The position numbers and the translations under genes are program-made. From the NCBI GenBank assembly GCA_902809825.1, contig LR778114.1, positions 1,984,001 through 2,048,000 of the forward strand: a stretch of 64,000 bases of DNA, in the 5' to 3' direction. A model generated the notes under the pieces. It did no database searches and had not been told where the DNA came from. It saw only the letters and a program-made list of their open reading frames with translations. This DNA comes from Candidatus Hydrogenisulfobacillus filiaventi (lineage in GTDB: Bacteria; Bacillota; Sulfobacillia; Sulfobacillales; R501). This document shows, in pieces, positions 6,402 through 43,927 of the stretch (the first letter of the stretch is position 1; each line of letters starts with the position of its first letter).

Positions 6402-7073
6402 TCATCGGCGGCGGAGGTCGGGTGGCGGGGTCGCCCGCCCCTCCCCGTCGTGCGAATCCGAAGCGTAGAGCCTGTTCTTGTAGATATAGTTTTCCACCGC
6501 CTCGGGCAGCAGGTACCGGATGGATAGCCCTGCCCGCAGGCGTTCCCGGATCTGGCTGGATGAGATCGCCAAGGCCGGTACTTCCAGAGGGTGAATACGC
6601 GCCCTATGCGCGGGACCGAGGCGGGACTCCATCGCCTTGAGTCGGGAGAGGGAGTACCCGGGGCGGCTGGCGGCAATCAGATGGGCGTACTCGAAAATGT
6701 CCTCTGGCGCATGCCAGGATGCGATCTCTAGAATAGCATCCGCGCCGCTGATAAAGTACCAGTCAACGTCCGGTCCCAGGCGGTGAAAATGAGCCAGCGT
6801 GTCGCTTGTATACGACGGCCCGGCCCGGTCGATCTCCACCCGGGAGAGATCGAAGTGCGGATTCGGCGTGATGGCCAGGAAGGTCATCAGATACCGATCC
6901 TCGGCCGGGGCCACGAAAGCCGCCGACTTATGAGGCGGCATCCCCGAGGGGATGAAGATGACCTGCTCCAGTCCGAAGGCATCCCGGGCCGCTTCCGCGG
7001 CCACCAGGTGCCCGTAATGGATGGGGTTGAAGGTCCCGCCCATAAGGCCGATGGCCCGACGCTTTCCGCTCAT
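6402..7073 (-). CDS. nadD: Nicotinate-nucleotide adenylyltransferase
   Basis: The 223-residue protein transfers AMP from ATP to nicotinate mononucleotide, the penultimate step of NAD synthesis. The nucleotidyltransferase loop GGTFNPIHYGHL sits at residues 12-23 and the second ATP motif ISSSQIR near residue 175; SGADAILEIASW is typical of NadD. The C-terminus has a 15-residue charged extension. It lies downstream of obgE, separated by a 66-bp AT-richer gap, in the usual Bacillota context obg-nadD-yqeK-rsfS, here interrupted by an RRM gene. Confidence 0.96.
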   Translation of the reverse strand: MSGKRRAIGLMGGTFNPIHYGHLVAAEAARDAFGLEQVIFIPSGMPPHKSAAFVAPAEDRYLMTFLAITPNPHFDLSRVEIDRAGPSYTSDTLAHFHRLGPDVDWYFISGADAILEIASWHAPEDIFEYAHLIAASRPGYSLSRLKAMESRLGPAHRARIHPLEVPALAISSSQIRERLRAGLSIRYLLPEAVENYIYKNRLYASDSHDGEGRATPPPDLRRR

Positions 7074-40636: not shown

Positions 40637-41956
40637 TCAACCGCAGCCGGGCGGCCGCCGCCCGGCGCGGCGCGGGAGCCACACCTCCACCGTCGTGCCC
40701 TGGCCCTCCCGGCTCCGGATGCGCCAGCGGCCCCGGTGGGCATGGACAATCCAGTCCGCAATGGCCAGGCCCAGGCCGCTGCCGCTCACCTCTCCCCGTC
40801 CGCGACCCCGGTAGAACCGGCGACGCACCAGGGGCAGTTCCGCCGCCGGAATGCCCCGCCCGCCATCCGCCACCTCCAGCAGAACCTGGTTGCGCTCCGC
40901 AGCCACCCGCAGCGCCACCCAGCCTCCGGGCCGGTTGTACTTGACCGCATTATCCACCAGGATGTACACCAGCTGCCGGAGGCGCCGGGCGTCACCGCAC
41001 ACCTCCACCGGCGGCCCGCAGCCCCCGGCCTCCAAGCGGAGGTCCCGGCACGCCGGAAGGGTCTCCATGGCCGCCAGCACCTCTACCGCCAAGGCCGCCA
41101 GGTCCACCGGTCCCTGCTGAAGGGGGGTCGCCCCCGACTCCGCCCGCGCCAGGGTGGCCAGGTCCCCGACAAAGGTACCCAGGTAATCCACCTCCACCAG
41201 GGCCTCCCCAATCCCGGCCCGCACCGCCGCCGGGTCGGGATCCTCCCGGGCTAGCTCCAGGGTCGCGCGCAGCACTGCCAGGGGGGTGCGCAGCTCGTGG
41301 GAGGCATCCTGAACGAACCGGCGTTGGGCCTCCATCGCCGAGCGGATGGGTCCCACCGCCCGCCCGGCCACCAGGAAAGCCAACGGGACGGCAACCACCA
41401 GGCTACCCGACAGGATGGCCACGTCCGCCCGCACCGCCGCCTGCAAGGCCTGCCGGGTGCGGGTCAGGCTGTAGGCCGACTGCAGGCTGCCGGCCAAGCG
41501 GCTGTGATCATAGACCGGATCGGTCCCGATGAGAAGCGGCGTCCCCTGCCAGACACAGGTGGTCCACACCGCCCGGCCTGCCTCCCGGGCGGCCCGGATC
41601 TGCCCCTGTAACGGCAGTAAGGTCCGCAAGGACCGTCCCGTTCCCAGCAGATGGTTGTCCCGTTTAAGGAGCCGCCCCTGGGCATCCCAGACCCAGGTGG
41701 CCACCAGCTCCGCCCTGCGGTCCACTCCGGCCTCCACCGCCCGGCCCGCTTCCAGGCGCAACACCTCCGGCCGTTTGCCGGACCATTCCTCCTCCACCAC
41801 TTGGCGGTCGAGACGGTAGAGGTCCTGGTACACAGCTGCGTAGGCGGCCCCCATGATGAGCACCTCCAGCACCAGGAAGGCCAGCAGGGTCCAGGCGGCC
41901 AGCCGCCAGCGGGCGGTGGTGAGCAGCCGGTGCTCAACCGGCAGTTCCGTTCTCAT
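40637..41956 (-). CDS. Membrane sensor histidine kinase
   Basis: The 439-residue kinase has two membrane helices (about 20-42 and 178-197) enclosing an extracellular sensor domain of about 135 residues, a short linker, the HisKA motif [13 protein letters not shown] with H220, and the ATPase domain (N box DNAVKYNR, G1 ADGGRGIP, G2 GSGLGLAI). The sensor region has no recognised fold. Its start overlaps the response regulator stop by 4 bp, so the pair is coupled. The signal is unknown. Confidence 0.95.
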
Positions 41957-42621
41957 GGGTCAATCTTATAACCGAACCCGCGGACCGTACGGATAAGGGG
42001 CGACGCCCCGGCATCCAGCTTGTGGCGCAGGCGCGCGATCACCGCCTCCACCACATTGGCGGACGGCTCCCGGTCCGCCCCCCAGACCCGGTCCAGGATG
42101 CGGTCCCGCGAAAACACCTGGCCGGGCCGGGAGGCCAGGAGTTCCAGCACCGCAAACTCCTTGGGGGTGAGAGCCAGGACCCGACCGCCCCGCACCGCGG
42201 TGCGCCGCGTCAGGTTGAGAACCAGATCCCCGGCCCGGATCTCATCCTCCCCCCGGTAGACCGGCGGCCGGCGGCTCAGGGCCGCCAGGCGCGCAATCAG
42301 CTCCCCGAAGGCGAAGGGCTTAACCAGGTAATCATCGGCCCCGGCCTCCAGGCCGGCAATCCGGTCATCCACCGAATCGCGGGCGGTCAACACCAGCACC
42401 GGCAGCGCCCGGCCCTGGCGCCGCAGCTGCCGGCAGAGGTCCAGGCCGTCCCCGTCCGGCAGCAGGCGGTCCAGTACCATGCCGTCATACTCGCTGGCGG
42501 CCAGGAAGTCCAGGGCCTCCCCGACCGTCGCCGCCAGGTCGCAGGGATGGCCGGCTGCCGCCAGGCCCTTGCGCAGGAGGGCGGCCAGCCGGCCCTCATC
42601 CTCCACCACCAGCAGCTTCAT
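41953..42621 (-). CDS. OmpR/PhoB-family response regulator
   Basis: The 222-residue protein has a receiver domain with acidic pocket E7-D8, phospho-acceptor D51, T80 and K102, and a winged-helix DNA-binding domain (LTPKEFAVLELLASRPGQVFSR, ANVVEAVIARLRHKLD, TVRGFGYKID). OmpR-type regulators bind direct repeats with about 11-bp spacing, and such repeats are found just upstream (42690-42733). The ATG has GGAGG five bases upstream. Confidence 0.96.
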   Translation of the reverse strand: MKLLVVEDEGRLAALLRKGLAAAGHPCDLAATVGEALDFLAASEYDGMVLDRLLPDGDGLDLCRQLRRQGRALPVLVLTARDSVDDRIAGLEAGADDYLVKPFAFGELIARLAALSRRPPVYRGEDEIRAGDLVLNLTRRTAVRGGRVLALTPKEFAVLELLASRPGQVFSRDRILDRVWGADREPSANVVEAVIARLRHKLDAGASPLIRTVRGFGYKIDP

Positions 42622-42657: not shown

Positions 42658-42745
42658 ATGATAACCGCATGATAAACAGCCCGATCCCGTTGTCATCCTC
42701 CGGTCATGGCACCGTCAGGCGGCTGTCATCCGGCAGGTGCATAAT
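42658..42745. promoter_or_regulatory. Divergent regulatory region with four 11-bp GTCA repeats
   Basis: Four consecutive 11-bp units (42690-42700, 42701-42711, 42712-42722, 42723-42733) each carry GTCA at the same place; GTCA starts at 42692, 42703, 42714 and 42725. The last unit contains CTGTCAT, identical to the PhoB half-site. A -10-like CATAAT (42740-42745) follows 10 bp after the last GTCAT, the geometry of PhoB-activated promoters, facing the small membrane gene at 42806. On the minus strand ATGACA (42691-42696) and TATCAT (42669-42674) with 16-bp spacing could drive the response regulator. A pair of ATGATAA repeats at 42658 and 42669 is also 11 bp apart. Confidence 0.7.
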
Positions 42746-42805
42746 CGCCCTACCGGCTGGCAGAGAGGACGCCGGCCGCGCGGAACCAGGAAGGAGGAAG
42801 CCCGC

Positions 42806-43003
42806 ATGCCCCTTTGGCAGGCCCTGGCGCTCGTCGCAGGCTTCAGCGGATTGATGACCGCAATCTGGCTGCTGCTCCCGGATAGCCCGGCCGCCGCTCC
42901 GCCGGCCCACCCCGCCCCGGGTCACCGCCGTCTGCCGGACGGGTGGCACGTGCTGCCCGGCGGCCGGCAGCCGCCGCCGTCCGCCCTCTCTTCCCATAGT
43001 TAG
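42806..43003 (+). CDS. Small membrane protein of 65 residues
   Basis: The protein opens with one membrane helix (LWQALALVAGFSGLMTAIWLL) and continues as a Pro/His-rich tail (APPAHPAPGHRRLPDGWHVLPG), which could bind metal or protons outside. AAGGAGG sits nine bases before the ATG. It is divergent from the two-component genes and lies just after the 11-bp repeats, making it the likely regulated target. Function is unknown. Confidence 0.62.
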   Translation: MPLWQALALVAGFSGLMTAIWLLLPDSPAAAPPAHPAPGHRRLPDGWHVLPGGRQPPPSALSSHS

Positions 43004-43028: not shown

Positions 43029-43211
43029 TCAGCGGGCCCGCGAACGCCACCACAGGGCCGCGCTGACCGCCAGGAAGAGGGTAAGACCGGCGACCAGCCG
43101 GTGCCCGCCGGCGGCCAGCAGGCCCGCCAGCCCCAGGGCCACCACCGCCAGACCCGCCAGCCAGGCGTCGTCGACGAACAAGCCCCAGATTTCCCGCAGC
43201 CAGTGCTTCAT
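43029..43211 (-). CDS. Small membrane protein of 60 residues
   Basis: The protein has an amphipathic start (MKHWLREIWGLFVDDAW) and two short membrane helices (LAGLAVVALGLAGLLAAGG, LVAGLTLFLAVSAALWW). Its ATG overlaps the stop of the upstream gene (43208), so they form an operon. The stop lies in the loop of an 8-bp hairpin (43021-43039). Function is unknown. Confidence 0.65.
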   Translation of the reverse strand: MKHWLREIWGLFVDDAWLAGLAVVALGLAGLLAAGGHRLVAGLTLFLAVSAALWWRSRAR

Positions 43212-43927
43212 GCCGGTTCCCGCTCCGGCCCACGGCGGGTCAGGGAGCTGATGATGCGCCAGCTCACCGCCAGGTAGCCCCCGATCAGGAGCAGGATGGC
43301 CAGGTCATGGCCCGGCCAGCGGATCCCGAGGCTGCTGCCCGCCCAATAACTGCCAAAGCTGGTCAGCATAATGCCCACTACGAACTTCATCACGTTCTCC
43401 GGCACCCGGGCCAGGGGGGCCCGCAAGGCCAGACCCAGCGCCCCCACCGCCAGGAGGCCAGCCAGCGCTCCCGCCACCGCGCTGGCGTAGGCCGCCCCGG
43501 CCGAACCCATGGTGAGGACAATCACCGCCACCTCCAACCCTTCCACCAGTACCCCGTTGAAAGCGGTGGCCTGCCCTTCCCGCCGGGCCCGGCCGCGCAG
43601 GCGCTCCACGGCCCCCGCATAGGCCCGGGCTTCGTCATGCACCGCCCGCAGCCCGGCGAAGCGCTGGATGGCCTTGCGCAACCACTTGGTCCCCATCAGG
43701 AGCAAGAGGCCGCCCACCACCCCCCGCAGGAGGTTCAGGGGCACCACCCGCACCAGGCCCGCCCCCAGGACCGCCACCACCACCGCCAGCACCGCCACTG
43801 CCGCCAGGGATCCGCGCAAGGCGGGGCGGGGCCCGAAAACCGCCGCGACCGCCAGCACGATGGTAAGGGCCTCCACGAACTCCACCGAGGAAGCCAGCGC
43901 GGTGGCCACGGCCACTGACCAGTGCAT
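43208..43927 (-). CDS. Polytopic membrane protein with two ExxE motifs (Ftr1/COG4280-like)
   Basis: The 239-residue protein has about six or seven membrane helices in two halves, each with a conserved-looking ExxE in a helix: SVEFVEALT (E16, E19) and LVEGLEVAV (E129, E132). This resembles the duplicated REGLE motifs of Ftr1-type iron permeases and related predicted ion exporters. A cytoplasmic charged loop (RAYAGAVERLRGRARRE) joins the halves. Substrate is unknown; a metal ion is a reasonable guess. It is followed by a small membrane gene with overlapping start. Confidence 0.65.
   Translation of the reverse strand: MHWSVAVATALASSVEFVEALTIVLAVAAVFGPRPALRGSLAAVAVLAVVVAVLGAGLVRVVPLNLLRGVVGGLLLLMGTKWLRKAIQRFAGLRAVHDEARAYAGAVERLRGRARREGQATAFNGVLVEGLEVAVIVLTMGSAGAAYASAVAGALAGLLAVGALGLALRAPLARVPENVMKFVVGIMLTSFGSYWAGSSLGIRWPGHDLAILLLIGGYLAVSWRIISSLTRRGPEREPA

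Follow-up and report, generated by a model that had tools for sequence, protein, structure and literature searches.

A probable PhoB-like operator-promoter region beside a two-component system of Candidatus Hydrogenisulfobacillus filiaventi, with a predicted order-wide regulon

Genes at the locus

The window analyzed here is a stretch of 64,000 nucleotides from the Candidatus Hydrogenisulfobacillus filiaventi genome. The part of interest is the gap between a two-component system on one strand and a small gene on the other:

40637..41956, minus strand: histidine kinase gene, identified by family match, the presumed partner of the regulator
41953..42621, minus strand: OmpR/PhoB-type response regulator gene (Response_reg + Trans_reg_C), the presumed binding protein
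42793..42797, plus strand: GGAGG ribosome-binding site of the small open reading frame (ORF), eight bases upstream of it
42806..43003, plus strand: 65-amino-acid (aa) ORF, the predicted target gene, with a single hydrophobic segment near the N terminus and a proline-rich tail

The preliminary description of this DNA had an OmpR-type regulator on one side of the gap and a 65-codon ORF on the other, and both are present as claimed. The regulator carries PF00072 and PF00486, the latter giving it the winged-helix domain of the OmpR family. The small ORF has a coding-like base pattern, with GC contents by codon position of 0.77/0.63/0.83. Its product has no family match, Pfam included, and the search for homologues outside its own genome returned weak matches, none of them clear. 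Within the genome there is a weak paralogue of similar shape (L125:1249-1431; G000 2,134,748); each of the two has one hydrophobic segment, followed by RIPRGWRVI in one and RRLPDGWHVL in the other. End-on to the small ORF lie a 60-aa ORF with one transmembrane (TM) segment (window 43029-43211, minus strand) and an OFeT_1 (ferrous-iron permease) gene (window 43208-43927, minus strand), which adjoins the window system and is a possible hint of a link to iron.

Two repeat arrays in one gap

The gap contains two sets of direct repeats, pointing in opposite directions, and three candidate promoter elements:

42690..42733, plus strand: operator of four 11-bp units, each with a GTCA core, facing the small ORF; geometry kept in L007, L009, L010 and L012
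42740..42745, plus strand: predicted -10 hexamer CATAAT, 10 bp past the last unit, CTGTCAT, a spacing shared with the relatives
42658..42673, minus strand: second direct repeat, ATCAT-N6-ATCAT, toward the regulator gene; similar in L009 and L012
42642..42647, minus strand: predicted -10 hexamer TAGGCT of a regulator promoter, 10 bp past the ATCAT pair
42669..42696, minus strand: alternative sigma-70-like regulator promoter, ATGACA-16-TATCAT, whose -35 element overlaps the GTCA unit at 42692

The plus-strand units are TTGTCATCCTC, CGGTCATGGCA, CCGTCAGGCGG and CTGTCATCCGG. Their GTCA cores start at 42692, 42703, 42714 and 42725, exactly 11 bp apart, and CATAAT follows CTGTCAT at 10 bp, so the positions given in the preliminary description hold throughout. 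A scan of the 2,570,337-bp genome finds the exact four-unit array once, where about 0.0006 would be expected by chance. Three-unit matches in the 64-kb window number two, both within the array, and none arose in 100 dinucleotide shuffles; with one mismatch allowed, the genome has three-unit matches at just two further positions. Direct repeats with an 11-bp period, together with a fixed distance from the last repeat to the -10 element in place of a -35 element (10 bp, here and in the relatives), are features of OmpR/PhoB-family operator-promoters. In the Escherichia coli phoA promoter the -10 element likewise lies about 10 bp past the repeats.

The minus-strand arrangement, ATCAT-N6-ATCAT-N10-TAGGCT (42673-42642), is a weaker copy that the preliminary description overlooked. 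When about 128,000 positions of the window were scored with a motif model whose training sites came from other genomes, this site ranked first and the plus-strand GTCA site third. Neither score alone exceeds the best of random windows; the 8.2 bits of the plus-strand site fall within the range of such best scores. Chance would not be expected to put two of the top three predicted positions into a single gap of 185 bp. The best match of a relaxed model, at 7058, lies on the antisense strand where a nadD-like gene begins, and we attribute it to chance.

Conservation beside related regulators

Relatives of the window regulator were gathered by protein similarity alone, the motif playing no part in their selection. 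At four loci of genus g12, which belongs to another family (L007, L009, L010 and L012), GTCA-N7-GTCA occurs in the same divergent gap, with the -10-like hexamers TACCAT, TAACCT, TACCAT and TAATCT, respectively, placed exactly 10 bp beyond the final unit. These sites face an exported protein of 112 to 128 aa, the copy at L012 being cut to 90 aa; by eye the proteins are PepSY-like, and the two that were tested score no PepSY match in Pfam. L009 and L012 also carry GTCAT-N6-ATCA-N10-NANNNT toward the regulator, and because they share this regulator-facing site, autoregulation from the weaker pair looks conserved. At L022 (G032) the site is upstream of a 91-aa, one-TM, Pro-rich protein, which is followed by the regulator and kinase genes.

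The regions upstream of 105 regulators were ranked with a model trained on other loci only, and the top five were L007, L009, L010, L012 and L022. Upstream of eight close regulators, five sites were seen, compared to about 0.001 expected at the real density of strict sites. In a tree of an 11-row set the window regulator groups with these regulators (support, 99/97), and the kinase alignment extends through the sensor region, with 37% identity in 424 columns. Regulators of the window's clade at L006 and L015 have no site upstream. Kribbella and Burkholderia regulators have strong-looking sites adjoining them, but these do not face PepSY genes. The PhoB-like activation geometry that had been proposed for the small gene is thus borne out in that repeat, spacing and -10 distance recur beside regulators of another family.

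Other sites in the genome

A looser form of the geometry finds three sites in the genome, upstream of the 65-aa ORF, of a gene at 92 kb and of an operon at 1.41 Mb. The 92-kb gene encodes a 281-aa PepSY protein. The 1.41-Mb site is a strict operator before a PepSY-regulator-kinase operon (L160:542-3352; G000 1,407,541-1,410,351). Only two PepSY genes in this genome exceed the Pfam cut-off, and both lie behind a site. The regulator at 1.41 Mb belongs to a clade distant from that of the window regulator and has the same operator code; this operator is accompanied by regulators of two clades that are widely separated in the tree, and a regulator from each is present in the genome.

Allowing one mismatch in the strict pattern gives two further matches in the genome. 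One has no convincing gene. The other precedes the gene for an exported Peptidase_A4 protein, a glutamic peptidase (L230:1501-2564; G000 ~2,466,834), of note in that PepSY domains have been linked to peptidase control. A scan over 63 gap combinations gave 74 matches in the genome, and because only 3 of these have the true spacing, geometry alone is not enriched. The weight of the predicted regulon is carried by gene association and conservation, not by own-genome geometry.

The operator across the order

The strict form, GTCAY-N6-GTCAY-N10-TANNNT, was searched across the order and gave 46 matches in 42 genomes, compared to 5 for the reversed control. The first downstream ORFs at 43 sites include 20 PepSY, 6 FMN_bind and 1 Ferric_reduct match; none of the 43 matches a phosphate-uptake family in Pfam. 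A PepSY or FMN signature lies downstream of 27 of 45 strict sites and of 0 of 26 sites found by the loose form only; the side facing away has it in 0 of 45 cases. Conservation extends to positions that the pattern leaves free: a T before the first unit, K before the second, a T-rich stretch after the second and a G two bases before the -10 element, as in extended -10 promoters. The plus-strand window site departs from the strict consensus at two letters, with C for T in the -10 hexamer, its single departure from the order consensus there, and G for Y after one unit.

In G142 the site heads FMN_bind, ApbE and RnfD-like genes, and the run continues with a regulator gene from the window's clade and a kinase gene (L127:2031-6386), and in G145 an FMN_bind-ApbE-RnfD-like operon lies directly behind a strict GTCA operator (L205:1525-3849). 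In G095, G135 and G144 the same operator precedes PepSY-PepSY-regulator operons, the regulator being of the other clade. The suggestion in the preliminary description that the motif would find further regulon members was well placed, given the PepSY genes of the same genome and the PepSY and FMN_bind targets across the order.

Interpretation and alternatives

The four GTCA repeats are very probably a regulatory switch. We consider it probable, from the layout and its recurrence, that the gap is a divergent, PhoB-like operator-promoter pair of the two-component system and that the operator marks an order-wide regulon. On our best reading, the predicted members would be exported PepSY genes, FMN_bind-ApbE-RnfD-like operons, ferric-reductase-like genes and two-component genes. 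We infer that the adjacent regulator binds the array. Once phosphorylated, it would bind the GTCA units head to tail, and the promoter-proximal pair (42714 and 42725) would take the place of a -35 element at a distance of 10 bp from CATAAT, and by analogy with PhoB would switch on the small membrane-protein gene at 42806. Activation of that gene is predicted because the array is oriented toward it and the 10-bp distance is constant. The two additional upstream units may extend or stabilize binding, and they may also block access to the divergent regulator promoter; they point away from that promoter and overlap one candidate -35 element, so they could repress or merely extend binding. The weaker ATCAT pair, 10 bp before TAGGCT, would provide autoregulation of the regulator-kinase operon. 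The preliminary description had a single operator controlling both the regulator and the 65-residue protein; the array does face the small gene, and the regulator is seemingly served by its own ATCAT pair on the minus strand.

Two readings would make the array either accidental or familiar. That the repeat arose by chance in GC-rich intergenic DNA and that the regulator has only an ordinary sigma-70 promoter would be in keeping with ATGACA-16-TATCAT, which matches at 10 of 12 positions and overlaps both arrays, but the uniqueness of the array in the genome, its absence from shuffled sequence and the layout kept in relatives make this extremely improbable. A plain sigma-70 promoter for the regulator is, taken by itself, possible. 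The resemblance to a PHO box of a phosphate (PhoB/PhoP) regulon is closer. PHO boxes are 11-nt repeats bound head to tail by PhoB, and the last window unit is identical to their E. coli core, CTGTCAT (PMC4415409); the likeness extends to the GTCA core, the direct head-to-tail repeats and a presumed OmpR-family regulator. However, the window array has four units with GC-rich spacers, and its regulator is not a PhoB equivalog, scoring 176 bits against a cut-off of 296.2. The other sites in the genome and the order precede PepSY, flavin (FMN_bind) and two-component genes, not phosphate genes. With neither targets nor regulator family fitting, we rejected the PHO box as very improbable.

A third reading keeps the regulon and changes the protein: the operator would be bound mainly by the 1.41-Mb regulator, and the window system would be its target or would cross-talk with it. 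The better sites are indeed those at the 1.41-Mb operon and the 92-kb PepSY gene (24.4 and 35.1 bits, respectively, against 8.2 bits at the window site), and in G095, G135 and G144 it is regulators of the other clade that stand behind the operator. In genus g12, G142 and G032, on the other hand, the operator's immediate neighbours are regulators of the window's clade, and autoregulation, the usual arrangement, also counts against the 1.41-Mb regulator as the main binder. We regard this reading as unlikely and prefer binding by the adjacent regulator.

Relation to known systems

The operator of BqsRS in Pseudomonas aeruginosa is a direct repeat with an 11-bp period, and its sequence is unlike that of the GTCA array. 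According to PMC12714742, BqsRS senses extracellular Fe(II) and is a regulator-kinase pair with adjacent PepSY genes, and PepSY genes beside two-component systems are widespread, such modules occurring in several phyla. The same source describes DbfQRS of Vibrio cholerae, in which the gene for a small exported PepSY protein lies beside a regulator-kinase pair, sometimes divergently. In the window, as in the g12 relatives, a regulator-kinase pair likewise adjoins the gene for a small exported protein, and in the window Pfam finds no PepSY domain in it. The passages of PMC12714742 considered here concern contact between PepSY protein and kinase, whereas the feature described here is an operator. 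ApbE-linked clusters for extracytosolic flavin electron transfer have also been described (PMC8238504), and G142 and G145 resemble them in having FMN_bind, ApbE and NqrB/RnfD-like genes together behind the operator. They differ in that a common operator and a two-component system go with them; no such cluster adjoins the window site.

The literature we searched on PepSY regulators, repeats and binding motifs, incomplete in its coverage, gave no description of this operator among the matches listed and contained little regulatory work on the order, and the regulon is apparently undescribed. Starting from a single repeat, the analysis arrives at a 32-bp promoter signature that can be searched for, predicts a regulon throughout a bacterial order and names specific genes and positions for direct test. 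Through the predicted regulon, extracytoplasmic flavin electron transfer would be linked to the PepSY-two-component modules, which are widespread and of poorly understood purpose. The FMN_bind and ApbE genes, the weak ferric-reductase-like match and the OFeT_1 gene, which are the sole indications of a signal, suggest iron or redox. A tentative extension, which we put forward as possible and somewhat doubtful, is that one operator code, read by two distant OmpR-type regulators, coordinates exported PepSY proteins with flavin electron-transfer and ferric-reductase-like modules in Sulfobacillus-type bacteria as a dedicated regulon for the redox or metal state outside the membrane, and that in the window system a new 65-aa membrane peptide that tunes the kinase has taken the place of the PepSY partner.

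Beyond the order, sites are few and heterogeneous, and inspection by eye suggests PepSY-, FMN-binding- or Spy-like targets for a small number of them. In G060, a genome outside the order, an operator match lies upstream of the gene for a 126-aa exported protein that appears Spy/CpxP-like by eye (L226:1536-1913).
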